From the NCBI GenBank assembly GCA_026018925.1, contig JAKSZU010000025.1, positions 26,830,696 through 26,894,695 of the forward strand: a stretch of 64,000 nt of DNA, written 5' to 3'. The position numbers and the translations under genes were made by a program. Origin of the DNA: Tupaia tana (taxonomy: Eukaryota > Chordata > Mammalia > Scandentia > Tupaiidae). Positions 8,612 to 64,000 of this stretch are shown one piece after another. Within the stretch, counting starts at the first letter, position 1. Every line of letters begins with the position of its first letter. The notes under the pieces are model-generated. The model was not told the origin of the DNA. It was given only the letters and a program-made list of their open reading frames with translations, and did no database searches.

Positions 8612-9875
8612 TGAACAATACCACTTCTTCTTGTTTATTCATCTATCAATAGACCCTTAGGTTGTTTCCACAACTCAACCATTACAACTAATTCTACAGT
8701 AAACATGGAAGTCCAGATATCTTCATGAAGTGATTATTTTATCTCCCTTGGCTATATGCCTGGAAGAGAGTTTTCTGGCTTTTATGGCAGTTGTATTTTT
8801 ACCTTCTTCAGGAAACTCCATGCTGTTTTCTGTAGAGACTGTACCAGTCTATGGTCCCACCAACACTGTATGAGTTCCCTTTTTCTCATACCCTCACCAA
8901 CGATTATCTCTTACTTTTTGATAATGGCCATCTCAATGGCTATGAGGGTGATATATTATAGTTGTTTCATTTGCATTTCCCTTAATAGATGAATGAGGTT
9001 GAGTACTCACTACATTCTGTCATTTTTTAATGTCTTCTTTGGAGAGATGTATGTTCAGGTCCTTTGCCCATTTTTATCAAGTTACTTGTTTTCAGTTATT
9101 GAGTTGTGAGTCTTTATAAAATTTGGATATTACTCCTTTATCAGGTATGTGGTTTGCAAGTATTTTCCCCAGTCTATTGGTTGCCTTTTCATTTTTTAAA
9201 TTGTTTCTGTTACGAAGCGGAATCCTTTTAGCTTGATGTAGTCCTATTTTTGTTATATTTTAGCTGTTGCAGCTTAAGCTTTGTATGACATCCAGAAAAT
9301 CGTTGCCAAGTTCAAAGTCAAGGCCATGTTCTTATAATAATTCTTTGAATATTTAGTACAATTTAGTCATGAAGCCATCCATGAGGTTGGGACTTATTTT
9401 GTTAAAAGGTTTTTAGTTACTACTTCAATCTCTTTATTTGTAATTTGTCTGTTCAAGCTTTCTCTTTCTTCCTGCTTCAACCTTGGTAGGTTATATTTTT
9501 CTAGAAATATATCTATTTTCCTATACGTTATTATATTTGTTGACATATAATTATTTATAATGGTCCTTATGATCAGTTTTATTAATGAGACATCTGTTGT
9601 TACATCTCCACTTTCACTTCCGATTTTATTTATTTGCATCTTTCTTTTGTTTAGTCCAACCAAATGTTTGTCATTTTACTTATTTATAACCACTTTTTGT
9701 TTCATTGATCTTTTCCCATGATTTTTCTGTTCTCTATTTGATTTATCTATTTTCTGAAGTTTTATTATTTCTTTCCTTCTACTAACTTTGGGTTCAGTTT
9801 GTTATTTTTATTAAGTTTGCTTTTGATTTTTTTTTCTTTGACCCATTGGTTGCTCAGGAAAATATTATGTAATTT
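8612..9875 (-). mobile_element. Decayed L1, 5'-truncated with internal deletion
   Basis: Reads as antisense L1. First part has the ORF2 C-terminal and 3' region words (GTCCCACCAACACTGTATG, GGTCCTTTGCCCATTTT, CAGTCTATTGGTTGCC). From about 9390 an ORF2 linker/RT-start peptide is readable on the minus strand (YNLPRLKQEERESLNRQITN, 9394-9663). The RT core between the two parts is missing, so the element is dead. Confidence 0.85.
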
Positions 9876-26183: not shown

Positions 26184-26199
26184 AAAGATATAAGGTTAA

Positions 26200-26533
26200 G
26201 GGAACCAGCAGTTAGCGTAATGGCTATGTCGCTGGACTCCCACGTAGTCGACCACGGTTTGAGTCCCGGACCTGGTGGCTTAAAACTCACGCCGGGGGAA
26301 CCGGCAGTTAGCGTAATGGCTATGTCGCTGGATTCCCGCGTAGTCGACCGCGGTTCGCGTCTCGGACCCGGTGGCTTACAACTCACGCCGGGCGCGTGTG
26401 CGTGCGTGCCCAAGATCCCGAGAGGAGAATGGAGAAGGGATTGCGGCGTGACCATCCCCCCGGGGGGTGATTTCTCGCTTTCTGTCTCTATGTCTCTCTC
26501 TGTCTGTCTGGCGAGCGCACGCGCCCTATAGCG

Positions 26534-26564
<31 letters not shown>

Positions 26565-26738
26565 ACGCCGGGTGCGTGTGCGTGCGTGCCCAAGATCCTG
26601 AGAGGAGAATGGAAGAGAAGGGATTGCGGCGTGACCATCCCCCCTGGGGGGTGATGTCTCGCTTTCTGTCTCTATGTCTCTCTCTGTCTGTCTGGCGAGC
26701 GCACACACCCTATAGCAAAAAACCTCTCCAAAAGAAAA
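26200..26738 (+). mobile_element. Young SINE interrupted by another SINE (outer element)
   Basis: Outer SINE: head at 26200-26296, remainder at 26558-26738. It has its own 16-bp target duplication, AAAGATATAAGGTTAA, at 26184-26199 and 26739-26754. The break falls after TTAAAACTCACGCCGGG. Confidence 0.95.
26297..26557 (+). mobile_element. Young SINE nested inside the outer SINE
   Basis: Full-length copy with A-tail of about 28 bases. AAAACTCACGCCGGG at 26282-26296 and 26558-26572 is the duplication made in the host SINE. It lacks the usual CCTCTCC before the A-tail. Confidence 0.95.
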
Positions 26739-26899
26739 AAAGATATAAGGTTAATAACTGAACCAAAGTTGCAAATCTAGAAGTCAACAAAGCTAGACTT
26801 AGAGCTTCTAAGTTTTTAGTCAAACGTCTTAGACTAATATATGTTAGTTGACACAGAAAAAACATTAAGAATATTCTTAAATTTCCAAATGCCACAATA

Positions 26900-37094: not shown

Positions 37095-37942
37095 GAGATA
37101 TTGGAGTATTTAAAATATTTTTTCATTTTAAATTTTATTATATGATTTACATTTATTCATTGCATAACTTTACAGCGTATACTGTGGCTTTTCTTTTATT
37201 TAGTCCCCCACTCCCATCCCACCCCTATATTGCCCATCACCCACCCACACTGTCTCCAGTATCCACAGTTACTCTCCATGTTGTTATACGTTCCAGTCTT
37301 TCAGTTTCTGCTGTAGAGTGTAGACATTTGGTATATATTAAGTGGGGACATACAATGCCTCTCTTACAAAGCCTGGATTACTTCACTTAGCATTAAATCT
37401 TCCATATTCAACCACTTTGTGTCAAATGCCAGGGTCCAGCTTTTTTGTTTGTTTTGTTTTGAGGGATTATTTTTTTCTATAAGGGCATATGTGCTCACCA
37501 GAGAGACAGCAAGCAAGAAACCATGCCCCTCTCCCCCACAGGGAGAAGGCCATGCTTCAATCTCTTCTCCTCTGTTCTCATTTTAGGATTTTGGGCATAC
37601 AGGCACATTCACGCAGCATGAGTTTCAAGCTGCTAGGTCCAGGATATGAACTGTGGTCGAGCACGTGGAAGTCCAGTGCCATAGCCACTACAACACCTGC
37701 TGGTCTCGAGTCTCATTTTTCATGGCTAAGTAGTATTCTACAGTGTATATGTGCCAAACTCTTTCAGTCCATTCATCTGGTCTTGGACATTTAGGTTGAT
37801 TCCATGTCTTAGCAATTATGAATAATGCTGCAGTAAACATGGATGTGCAAGTGTTTTTCCAACTGAGTGTATTCCTGTCCTGTGGGCAGATACCCAGAAG
37901 TGGAATTACTAGGTCAAAAGATAGTTCTACATGTAGGTTTTT
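37095..37942 (-). mobile_element. L1 3' end (outer element, left part), split by a SINE
   Basis: TTCATTGCATAACTTTACAGC 3'-UTR start, AAGTGGGGACATACAATGCC, AGTAGTATTCTACAGTG (ORF2p C-terminal EYY region antisense), AGCAATTATGAATAATGC and GTGGAATTACTAGGTC. Sequence stops at about 37942, at the T-rich tail of the next L1. Its continuation is probably 42805-43385. Confidence 0.88.
37440..37707 (-). mobile_element. tRNA-derived SINE inserted in the L1
   Basis: T/G-rich tail, TTTTTCTATAAGGGCATATG, GACAGCAAGCAAG, CTTCTCCTCTGTTCTCATTT, GATATGAACTGTGGTCG and CACCTGCTGGTCTC; interrupts the L1 word 'cagggtc...tcattttt'. Confidence 0.88.
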
Positions 37943-38544
37943 GTGTTTTGTTTTTGTTTTTGTTTTTGTTTTTGTTTTTTTGTATCCTCATCTATTTTTT
38001 TCTCTTTTTTTTACATTTATTCACTGTGTATCATTACAGCATATCAAATTAATTTTCCCATTCTAAATATATTGTATATTGGTTCTATCAAAAATATCAC
38101 TATATATATTATCAACAGTTAGTTTTTCATTTTTTGTGACCCATAAATAGTTTTCTTCTCCTTCTTTTCTTGATTTCCTATCTCTCACCCTCCCCCATTT
38201 CCTACCTTCCTCCCACATCATCTCTTATATCCTCAGTTGTTCTCCATGATTTTATGCCTCCCAGTCTTTCCGTTTTTGCATAGAGTGCAGACATTAAGTA
38301 TATACTGAGTGGGGACATACAATGCCTCTCTTTCATAGTCTAGCTTGCTTTGCTTAGCAGTAAATCTTCCATATTCATCCACTTTCTATCAAATAACAGG
38401 GTCTCATTGTTTTATATGACTAAATAGTATTCTACAGTACATATGTGCCACACTTTTTTAATCTATCCATCTATTCGTGGACATTTGGGTTGGTTCCATG
38501 CCTTAGCAATTGTGAATAATGCTGCAGTAGACATGGGTGTCTAA

Positions 38545-39972
38545 GTGTTTTTCCAACTGAGTGCATTCCTGTCCTTTGGACAGATACCTGGTAATGGAAT
38601 TGCTGAATCATATGGTAGTTTTATTTGTGGATCTTTGAGGAATCTCTACATCACTCTCCACAGTGGCTGTACTACTTTACATCCCACCAGCAGTGAAGGA
38701 GAGTTCCCTTTGAGGAATCTCTATATCACTCTCCACAGTGGCTGTACTACCTTACATCCCACCAGCAGTGAAGGAGAGTTCCCTTTGAGGAATCTCTATA
38801 TCACTCTCCACAGTGGCTGTACTACCTTACATCCCACCAGCAGTGAAGGAGAGTTCCCTTTGAGGAATCTCTATATCACTCTCCACAGTGGCTGTACTAC
38901 CTTACATCCCACCAGCAGTGAAGGAGAGTTCCCTTTGAGGAATCTCTACATCACTCTCCACAGTGGCTGTACTACCTTACATCCCACCAGCAGTGAAGGA
39001 GAGTTCCCTTTGAGGAATCTCTACATCACTCTCCACAGTGGCTGTACTACCTTACATCCCACCAACAGTGAAGGAGAGTTCCCTTTGAGGAATCTCTACA
39101 TCACTCTCCACAGTGGCTGTACTACCTTACATCCCACCAGCAGTGAAGGAGAGTTCCCTTTGAGGAATCTCTACATCACTCTCCACAGTGGCTGTACTAC
39201 CTTACATCCCACCAACAGTGAAGGAGAGTTCCCTTTGAGGAATCTCTATATCACTCTCCACAGTGGCTGTACTACCTTACATCCCACCAGCAGTGAAGGA
39301 GAGTTCCCTTTGAGGAATCTCTACATCACTCTCCACAGTGGCTGTACTACCTTACATCCCACCAGCAGTGAAGGAGAGTTCCCTTTGAGGAATCTCTACA
39401 TCACTCTCCACAGTGGCTGTACTACCTTACATCCCACCAGCAGTGAAGGAGAGTTCCCTTTGAGGAATCTCTACATCACTCTCCACAGTGGCTGTACTAC
39501 CTTACATCCCACCAGCAGTGAAGGAGAGTTCCCTTTGAGGAATCTCTACATCACTCTCCACAGTGGCTGTACTACCTTACATCCCACCAGCAGTGAAGGA
39601 GAGTTCCCTTTGAGGAATCTCTACATCACTCTCCACAGTGGCTGTACTACCTTACATCCCACCAGCAGTGAAGGAGAGTTCCCTTTGAGGAATCTCTATA
39701 TCACTCTCCACAGTGGCTGTACTACCTTACATCCCACCAGCAGTGAAGGAGAGTTCCCTTTGAGGAATCTCTATATCACTCTCCACAGTGGCTGTACTAC
39801 CTTACATCCCACCAGCAGTGAAGGAGAGTTCCCTTTGAGGAATCTCTATATCACTCTCCACAGTGGCTGTACTACCTTACATCCCACCAACAGTGAAGGA
39901 GAGTTCCCTTTGAGGAATCTCTATATCACTCTCCACAGTGGCTGTACTACTTTACATCCCCACCAACAGTGA
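38545..39972 (+). other. 475-codon open frame across the L1 array, not a gene
   Basis: Exists because the 75-bp unit is a multiple of 3 and has no stop in this frame. It encodes 17 identical-length 25-residue repeats (RNLYITLHSGC, TTLHPTSSEGEFPL) on the strand opposite to L1 ORF2. No signal, domain or homolog recognised. Confidence 0.85.
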
Positions 39973-39988
39973 AGGAGAGTTCCCTTTT
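38638..39988. repeat. 75-bp tandem array, 18 copies, inside L1 ORF2
   Basis: Unit runs AGGAATCTCTATATCACTCT ... GAGTTCCCTTTG. Copies 1-17 are exactly 75 bp; copy 18 is 76 bp (CCCC, not CCC) and passes into ordinary L1 sequence (TTCACCATAGC). Antisense, copy 18 reads GTLLHCWWGCK then VQPLW, a conserved piece of L1 ORF2p C-terminus. Units differ only at a few sites: TAC/TAT, AGCAG/AACAG, and CTTTAC in copies 1 and 18 versus CCTTAC inside. Confidence 0.97.
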
Positions 39989-42804
39989 CACCATAGCTTC
40001 TCCAGCACTTGCCATCAATATTTTTTTAATCTTAGCTATCCTGACTATTAGTTGTTTATATATCTTCTTTGGACAGTTGTCTGTTCAGTTATTTGACTTT
40101 TAATTGGATTGATTTTTTTTTTCCAAGTAAGCTGCTTGAGTTTTCTATATAGTCTGGTTATCGTTCCCTTATCTGAGATAGAATTTGCAAATATGTTCTC
40201 CCATTCAGAGAGTGGTCTATTCACTCTAATCGTTGTTTCTTTTGCTGTGCAGAAGCTTTTCAAACTGATGTAATCCCACTCGTTTATTTTCATAATGATT
40301 GCCTGTGCTTTGTGGGTCTGATTTACAAAGTTTTTGCTTACTCCAATGTATCCAAGAGTTTTTCCCTGTGTTTTCCACAAGCAGTTTTATAGTTTGGGGT
40401 TTTATGTTCAGATCTTTGATTCATTTTGAATTGATTTTTGTTAATGAGAGATAGGGGTTCAGTTTCATTTTTCATCAGATGAATAGCCAGTTTGTCCAGC
40501 ACCATTTGCTAAAGAGATTTTCTTTTCCTCATTGAATTGTCTTGTACCCTTTGTCCAAAATCAGTTGGATGCATGTCTGAAGGTTTATTTCTGGGGTCTC
40601 TATTCTGTTCCATTGGTCTACATGCCTGTTTTTGTGCCAATATCGTGTTGTTTTGATTAACTTTTTAATATATTTGGAAGTCAGAAGTAAGATGCTACCT
40701 TCTCCACTTTTTTTGCACAGTATTGCTTTTGCAATATGGGTCTTTTGTGATTCAGAAAAATTTTATGATTGTTTTGTCTAATTGTATGAAAAAGATCTCT
40801 GGTAATTTAAACAAGATTGCATCAAATTTATAAGTCAATTTGGGTAGGATTGACATTTTGATTATATTAGTTTTTCCAAGTCAGGAACATGGGATGCCTT
40901 CCCACTTTTTTGTATCATTTTCAATCTATTTTTTGAGTTTTTCATAGTTTTTCTTGTAGATGTCTTTGACTTCTTTGGTTAGTTTTATTCCTAAGTCTTT
41001 TACTGTTTTTGTGGCTATTGTAATTGGGATTGATTTCTTCAGTTCTACCTCAGTCTGCTTGTTGTTCGTGTACATAAATAAATGTAGATTTTTCTATGTT
41101 GATTTTTGTATCCTACCACTTTACTATTATTTATTTAACACTTCCAAGAGTTTTTTTTTATTCTTTTGAATTTTATGTATATATAATCATGTCATCTACA
41201 AATAGAGACAACTTTATTTCTTCTTTCCCTATTCAAAAGCCTTTTGTCTTGGGCTCTTTTCTGATTGCATTGGCTAGGACTTCCAATACTATATTTAAAA
41301 GAAGGGGAGGAAGTGGGCAGCTTTGTCTTATTCCAGTTTTGAGTGGAAAGCTTTCAGCATTTCCCCATTGACTATGATACTAGCTGTGAGTTTTTCATAT
41401 ATAGCTTTTATTGTATTGAGAAATGTCCCTTGTATGCCGATTTTGCTGAGAGCCTTAATCATGAAGGACTGTTGTATTTTATCAAATGTTTTTTCTGTGT
41501 TGATTGATATGACCATATGGTTTGTATCTTTCTTCCTATTAATATGGTGTATTACATTTATGGGTTTGCATATGCTGAACCACCCTTACATCCCCGAATA
41601 AAGCCTACCTGGTCATGGTATATCATCTTTTTAATGTGATACAATTTGCTAGTATGTTCTTGATAACTTTTGCATCTGTATTCATCTGATATATTGGTTT
41701 GTAGTTCTGTTTTTTGGTTGTTGTTGTTTCCTTGTCAGTTTGGGGATGACAGTGATGGAGGCTTCATAGAATGAATTTGGGAGGGTTCCTTCCCTTTGGA
41801 TCTTCAGAAAGAGTTTGAGTAGAAGGAAAGTTAGCTCCTCTTTAAAAGTTTTGTAGAATTCAGAAGTGAAGCCCTCAGGACCTGGACTTTTCTTTGGTGG
41901 GAGGTTATTTACTACTGATTCAATCTCATTGCTTGTTATTGGTCTACTCAAGCTTTCTATGTATTCCTGAGTCAATCTTGGTAGATTATGTATCCAGGAA
42001 TTTGTCCATCTCCTCCAAGTTTTCTCCTTTGTTGACATATAGTTGCTCATAGTGTTTTCTAAAGACCTTTGTATCTCTGTTTCCTCTGTTGTAATCTTGC
42101 CTCTTTTATTGCTGTTTTGATTTATCTGGTTCATTTCTCTCTCCTTCTAAATTAGTCTAGCTAATGGCATGTCAATTTTATTTATCTTTCTCAAAGAACC
42201 AGCCTTTGTTTTATTTATTTTCTACATAGTTTCTTTATTCTCTATTTGTTTCTGCTTGAATCGTTATTATTTCTTTTCTCCCAGTATTTTGTTGTTATTG
42301 TCCCCAGAGGTGTATTGTTAGGTCGTCTGTTGGCCACTTACCCATCTTTATCTTCTGTACACCAGTTGTTATGAACTTCCCTTTGACGATACTTTCGCCA
42401 TGTCTCATAGGGTATGGAAACACATGTGCTCATTATCATTGATTACAATGAATCTTTTTATTTCAGATTTAATTTTTTCAGTGGTTGTAAAGTCATTCAG
42501 GAGTAGATTATTTAATTTCCATGTGTTTGTGTACTTTTGAGAGTTTACTCTGTTGTTGATTTCAAGTTTAATTCCATCGTAGTCAAAGAAGATGCTGGAT
42601 ATAGTTTCTACCCATTTAAATTTGTAAAGACCTTTTTTTGTGCCCTATCATGTGGTCAGTCTTCAGAAGGTCCATGCAGGGGTGAGGAAAATGTATATTT
42701 TTTGGTTATTGAGTGGAAAGTTCAATAGCTATTTATCAATGGATTTATTTGATTTATGGCATCATTTAGATCCTGTATCTCTTTGGTTATTTTTTGTCTA
42801 TAGA

Positions 42805-43385
42805 TGATCTCACCAGCCCCTATCATTTTTTGTTTTTAATCTTAGCCATTCTGACTGGGGTAGATTGTATCTCATTGTGGTTTTGATTTGCATCTCCCTT
42901 ATGATGAGAAAATTTGAGCTTTTTTTCATGTGCTTTTTGGCTGTTAGTATGTCTTCCTTAGAGAGTTGTTTGTTCCGCTCATTATCCCATCTTTTCATTG
43001 GGTTGGGTAAGCTGCTTGAGTTCCCTGTGTATTTTGGTTATCAGTCACTTATCTGAGGCATAGTTTACAAAAGCAGTCTCCCATTCTGAAAGTTGTTGAT
43101 TAATGCTAATTACTCTGTCTTTTTCTGTGCAGAAACTTCTTAATCTGATGTAATCACACTTATCTATTTTGGGCATTATTGCCTGTGCTTTGGGGGTCTT
43201 ATTTAAGAAGAATACTCAGATGGCTACTCCGATGTCTCCCAGAGTTTCCCCAGTGTTTTCCACCAGTAGTGTTATAGTTTGAGGTCTTAGGTTTAGATCT
43301 TTGATCCACTTTGAGTTGATTTTTGTTAATGGTGAGAGATGGGGGTCCAGGTTCATCTTTCTGCACCAGTTTCTTCACCCACTCT
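42805..43385 (-). mobile_element. L1 ORF2 C-terminal fragment (probable right part of the outer L1)
   Basis: Minus-strand frame at 42810-42998 reads [20 protein letters not shown] and [11 protein letters not shown], the ORF2p C-terminal region. Continues through CTGTGCAGAAACTTCTTAAT to ATCCACTTTGAGTTGATTTT. 5'-truncated near 43385. Confidence 0.85.
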
Positions 43386-63776: not shown

Positions 63777-64000
63777 GCTCATCCTTACACACGGACATCC
63801 TCACCACGGCTCATCCTTACACACGGACATCCTCACCACGGCTCATCCTTACACACGGGCACCCTCACCACGGCTCATCCTTACACACGGGCACCCTCAC
63901 CGCGGCTCATCCTACACACGGGCACCCTCACCGCGGCTCATCCTACACACGGGCACCCTCACCGCGGCTCATCCTACACACGGGCACCCTCACCGCGGCT
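63777..64000. repeat. 32/31-bp minisatellite, at least 7 units
   Basis: Units 1-4 (63777-63904) are 32 bp, with GCTCATCCTTACACACGG; units 5-7 (63905-63997) are 31 bp, having lost one T (CATCCTACAC). Units 1-2 carry GACATCC, units 3-7 GGCACCC; units 1-3 end ACCACG, units 4-7 ACCGCG. Runs off the window end. Confidence 0.97.

Follow-up and report, generated by a model that had tools for sequence, protein, structure and literature searches.

The 75-bp tandem array described here is a putative single-locus minisatellite that most likely arose from a single unit within a dead L1, a reading to which we assign a probability of about 0.85. Judged by its sequence, the array lies antisense within ORF2 of a minus-strand L1 that lacks its 5' end. 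We analyzed it within the whole 64,000-base stretch of DNA in which it stands, hereafter called the window. The array fits a known kind of repeat, the minisatellite derived from a transposable element (TE), of which it is a well-preserved and clear case.

Results

An array of 18 nearly identical units

TRF reported a single array at 38633-39987 with a period of 75, 18.1 copies, 98% matches, 0% indels and a score of 2603; the second-best score within the window was 608. Cutting the units at their own start gave 18 head-to-tail units without spacers, 17 spacings of exactly 75 and a final unit of 76 bp, the count of 18 being that of one assembly. On average the units are ∼98.5% alike, and their pairwise difference has a mean of 1.5% and a maximum of 4% (153 pairs, with the extra C of copy 18 omitted to keep the units aligned). 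The initial annotation had described 17 almost identical copies of 75 bp plus one of 76 bp, in agreement with both TRF and our unit split. It had also placed the array at 38638-39988, which is the right array at positions that are 1-5 nt too high. Because CTTT is present at both ends, the span may be set anywhere between 38633-39983 and 38637-39987, a range that the earlier coordinates overshoot by one. The features are collected in Table 1.

Table 1. Coordinates of the array and of the L1 elements around it (positions within the window)
Feature	Position	Strand	Basis
Whole array of 18 units, 75 bp each except the last (76 bp)	38633..39983	- (sense of host L1)	TRF and unit split
Copy 1, 75 bp; T at site 44 common to copies 1 and 18 only	38633..38707	-	Unit split
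Last unit, copy 18 (76 bp): keeps the ancestral length and the ORF2 frame (GTLLHCWWGCKVVQPLW); site 44 is T	39908..39983	-	Unit split and protein match
CTTT at the left border, 4-bp microhomology	38633..38636	.	
CTTT at the right border, 4-bp microhomology	39984..39987	.	
Host L1 (L1#1): A-rich tail at ∼37938-37982, 3' end, broken ORF2, 5'-truncated	37938..42832	-	Eye and local alignments; borders approximate
Older L1#2, 5' side	42833..43361	-	Alignments cover 42822-42856 and 42942-43361; rest by eye
Older L1#2, 3' side, interrupted at ∼37437-37709	37191..37937	-	Alignments

The ancestral unit is a piece of L1 ORF2

We compared the translated array borders with solved L1 ORF2 proteins. The copy-18 piece at 39924-40025 (minus strand) matches ORF2p residues 1126-1155 of 9k6g with an E value of 8.2e-11, and its CWRSY aligns with CWRGC of solved ORF2p. 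The piece from the opposite flank, 38544-38645, matches residues 1158-1191 of 9k6g weakly (E 0.0059); its best chain is 8sxt (E 0.00027), with a spacing identical to that in 9k6g. The two residues between the matched ORF2p stretches correspond to the last residue of the copy-18 piece and its stop. Copy 18 and both flanks are thus collinear with solved L1 ORF2 proteins, and a single 76-bp unit is therefore ancestral. Copy 18, the terminal unit toward the 5' end of the L1, reads in the ORF2 frame and has kept the founding 76-bp length; the 1-nt deletion common to copies 1-17 is therefore derived. These matches bear out the initial annotation in that the array derives from a C-terminal segment of L1 ORF2 lying antisense, that the last copy joins normal L1 sequence and still encodes an ORF2p piece antisense, and that copies 1-17 share a 1-nt deletion.

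The host L1 is broken and every unit carries stops

The reverse transcriptase (RT) piece of the host at 41685-42146 matches solved LINE-1 ORF2 proteins, presumably human, of five distinct sequences (best E 1.7e-38). The ORF2 pieces of the host are spread over the three frames of the minus strand and are separated by stops. Over 38600-40030 these frames hold 37, 21 and 19 stops, 36, 18 and 18 of them inside the array, and each of the 18 units is hit by a stop in each of the three frames. An active L1 has an open ORF2; here the frames are broken and stops stand in every unit. One TAG in the ORF2 frame of copy 18 recurs in 18 of 18 units, and this stop therefore either predates the initial duplication or reached the other units afterwards. 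A search of 39908-40600, translated with X at stops, returned no Pfam family. Because the host L1 is broken and every unit is stopped in three frames, a unit length that is a multiple of 3 has no coding meaning for ORF2. The same stops speak against the earlier statement that the array stands in coding ORF2.

The host L1 appears to lie inside an older L1

L1#1 appears to have inserted into the older L1#2. The L1#2 stretches 43007-43361, 37710-37943 and 37191-37436 are 76.4%, 80.6% and 76.8% identical to the L1#1 stretches 40127-40473, 38401-38637 and 38162-38403, respectively. The resulting divergence of 19-24%, compared with 1.5% between units, is a rough sign of age only, as it is measured between two different elements. 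A plain insertion of L1#1 is unproved because the stretches compared for a target-site duplication (37900-37945 and 42800-42870) share no 8-mer or longer. Compared with a one-unit form of L1#1, L1#2 is short of ∼110 bp by a hand count from the alignments, and the homologue of the unit is among the lost bases. The homology between L1#2 and L1#1 (37937-37943 and 38631-38637) ends in a T-rich motif at the array's left edge; the final matched bases at the left end of the L1#2 loss are T and may come from the L1#1 tail. None of the other L1 pieces within the window covers the 75-bp unit.

Several further repeats were seen in the same window. An insert of ∼270 bp in the 3' part of L1#2 (37437-37709) resembles, by eye, a reversed tRNA-like SINE, and another L1 RT-like piece at 9342-9777 is 66% identical to 41839-42279. 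A composite SINE at 26184-26754, also tRNA-like by eye, has two tandem head copies (96-bp period) and two bodies (184-bp period), the first of them with a run of 28 A; it is flanked by a 16-base direct repeat that is perfect and looks like a target-site duplication. A 32-bp minisatellite at 63777-64000 (7.1 copies by TRF) runs past the window end, and its units 1-4 have 32 bp while the next two have 31 bp, with one T fewer. Searches over the window identified no Rfam family at the gathering score and, with ARAGORN, no tRNA. The L1 and the SINEs, whose tRNA origin is judged by eye, suggest that the DNA is mammalian. The 26-base core of the unit had no exact match in viral and prokaryotic contig collections, and a 112-residue ORF2 piece gave 7 and 43 pattern stretches there, with 0 confirmed relatives. 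As these collections hold viral and prokaryotic DNA, the misses are uninformative on mammals.

Variants among the units point to recent growth

The unit has three variable sites (17, 44 and 58), all transitions, plus one indel. Site 17 is T in copies 2-4, 9 and 15-18, site 58 is A in copies 6, 8, 17 and 18, and at site 44 all 16 internal copies have C and only the terminal ones, 1 and 18, have T; the indel is CCC in copies 1-17 and CCCC in copy 18 alone. Substitutions private to one unit number zero in 1,350 bp. The site pairs 17/44, 17/58 and 44/58 each occur in four of four combinations, hence breakpoints of exchange fell inside units or mutations were repeated. Transitions arising more than once at these three sites could produce the same pattern as exchange. 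Together, the lack of private substitutions and the combinations at the site pairs indicate that the array grew recently through slippage or unequal exchange, with breaks falling within units, and the pattern of site 44, T at the ends and C inside, fits a variant spreading through the middle of the array. Adjacent units are identical in 7 of 17 pairs, compared with 4.1 expected, a value reached in 6.6% of 20,000 shuffles; the excess of identical neighbors is slight and the clustering is not strong.

The initial annotation had listed the copies with TAT, those with AACAG and the CCC/CCCC split, all of them correctly according to our unit split, and had missed the third variable site, 44. Its statement that these variants cluster holds for the lists but not for the strength of clustering. 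Growth by block duplication, as it had proposed, is an incomplete account, since the four combinations at three site pairs need within-unit exchange or repeated mutation.

If 2.2e-9 substitutions per site and year are assumed, the count of zero private substitutions would date the last rounds of growth to less than ∼1 million years ago at the 95% limit. The same limit is 2.2 million years at a rate of 1e-9 and 0.44 million years at 5e-9. Homogenisation would make these last rounds appear too young.

Discussion

Birth of the array

We propose that one 76-bp stretch of the C-terminal region of L1 ORF2 was duplicated once, with the CTTT at both ends perhaps helping. One unit would then have acquired the 1-nt deletion, and the 75-bp form would have multiplied via replication slippage or unequal exchange, with the three variants shuffled among the 18 copies as their pattern suggests. 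The array would accordingly be a by-product of DNA copying or recombination, with no known function.

The boundary microhomology of the founding stretch is 4 bp. In the one-unit form of the host L1, at least four shared bases for a 76-bp duplication are found at 108 of 3,344 positions (3.2%; P ∼0.03), and over duplication lengths of 40-120 in 8,172 of 258,714 cases (3.2%). A birth assisted by microhomology is allowed and weakly favored by these counts. The earlier claim of CTTT at both boundaries therefore stands, and the slippage or microhomology that it was taken to suggest is weakly favored only (4 bp, P ∼0.03). We also folded six stretches as single-stranded DNA and obtained z-scores from -0.60 to -1.99. 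The strongest fold, that of a 78-base plus-strand stretch across a junction, was reached by 8 of 200 shuffles and was the best of six tries, so that a unit hairpin as the cause of expansion is at most a hint.

The L1 endonuclease prefers T-rich sites. Conceivably, though we consider it a long shot, the array was seeded by a nick of this enzyme, the T-rich motif being a recurrent nick site at two homologous positions, the left edge of the array (CTTT, 38633-38636) and the joint of L1#1 with L1#2. Nicks there may have caused one L1 to take up an insertion while losing target bases, and the other to gain a tandem duplication. The coincidence of the left array edge with the end of the L1#2 loss, within a few bases, was noticed post hoc and may be chance. 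In the literature, L1 endonuclease sites have been named as possible starts of recombination (PMC3389668), and ZNF146 binding, which we considered as a candidate function, has been reported near the 3' end of L1 ORF2 (PMC8896011), according to the excerpts of these papers used here.

Alternative explanations

The array might already have been present in a master L1 and have been spread by retrotransposition as a feature of an L1 subfamily, as some TE subfamilies (LTR12, L1PA) carry internal tandem repeats along (PMC3389668, in the sections used here). However, the three-frame stop in every unit would have disabled ORF2 of that master, and the units are far more alike than the host L1 is to the neighboring L1#2, which makes this origin very unlikely. 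We give virtually no weight to a protein of 25-residue repeats encoded by the array antisense to L1, on the plus strand. One frame of this strand runs through the array without a stop for 475 codons, and two of the three variable sites cause no amino-acid change in that frame, but it contains no ATG and is listed only from a GTG. Moreover, 4,396 of 5,000 shuffled units placed in tandem also give at least one open frame, so that an open plus-strand frame is expected.

An assembly artefact, with one, two or another small number of units at the true locus, is highly improbable in our judgment. The array, at 1,351 bp, exceeds the length of short reads and its copy number comes from a single assembly, and the exact unit number may be wrong even if the array is real. 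Repeated joining of one unit, however, would give identical units, whereas the units here differ in an orderly way, at three sites and by one indel and with end copies that stand apart, and none of the 64,000 bases of the window is an N. We retain, as the most likely reading, a minisatellite born in place from one unit of a dead L1.

Relation to known TE-derived tandem repeats

In humans, 7,276 of 31,472 minisatellites and satellites are TE-derived, with 601 from L1 outside L1PA (Ahmed and Liang 2012, PMC3389668). As far as the excerpts of that study show, 6,817 of the 7,276 were left without explanation by its authors and the majority of these have two units only, which places an array of 18 units at the long end. 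The human arrays are likewise tandem parts of a TE with similar units grown in place, the closest parallel being an AluJo array with 17 units of 52 bp; ours comes from another species and another part of a TE. That study counts arrays with units of at least 20 bp in at least two copies that are at least 95% alike, a GC content of at least 40%, and overlap with or resemblance to a TE over at least one period. Our array has 18 units of 75 bp differing by 1.5% (maximum 4%), a GC content of 48.3% over 1,351 bp, and resemblance to L1 through the protein matches of copy 18, the flanks and the RT piece, the assignment being based on ORF2p protein matches and not on a DNA consensus of the host L1. The flanking-repeat model of Haber and Louis, as cited in the excerpts of PMC3389668 and PMC6947457, has the founding unit bounded by direct repeats of 5-10 bp. 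Here these repeats have 4 bp only, and slippage with less is possible. Titles and abstract openings among the matches listed contained no published description of the present 75-bp array, which does not prove its absence.

Pvc 20 of the harbour seal is, we assume, a satellite. It is listed with PROsat of Phodopus roborovskii among new sequences from LINE-1 ORF2 in the excerpted part of a review (PMC9659126), which gives 88% similarity of ORF II to a small region for PROsat. Both share the L1 ORF2 origin of our array, but PROsat is called a satellite and here a single array of 1.35 kb is known. The common cetacean satellite in the same review is also a tandem repeat from the 3'-terminal part of L1, but its source is the 3' UTR rather than ORF2, and it is a satellite in contrast to our short array. 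The earlier description of the array as unusual was thus overstated, as minisatellites from TEs and L1 have been counted (PMC3389668) and sequences derived from L1 ORF2 have been listed (PMC9659126).

Overall, the array offers a clean, young-looking case of the start of a minisatellite inside a dead retrotransposon, one that still shows its ancestral unit, the boundaries of the founding stretch and the earliest derived change. The nick-site reading, if true, would bear on the start of most TE-derived arrays, 6,817 of 7,276 being left open in the excerpted human study (PMC3389668).
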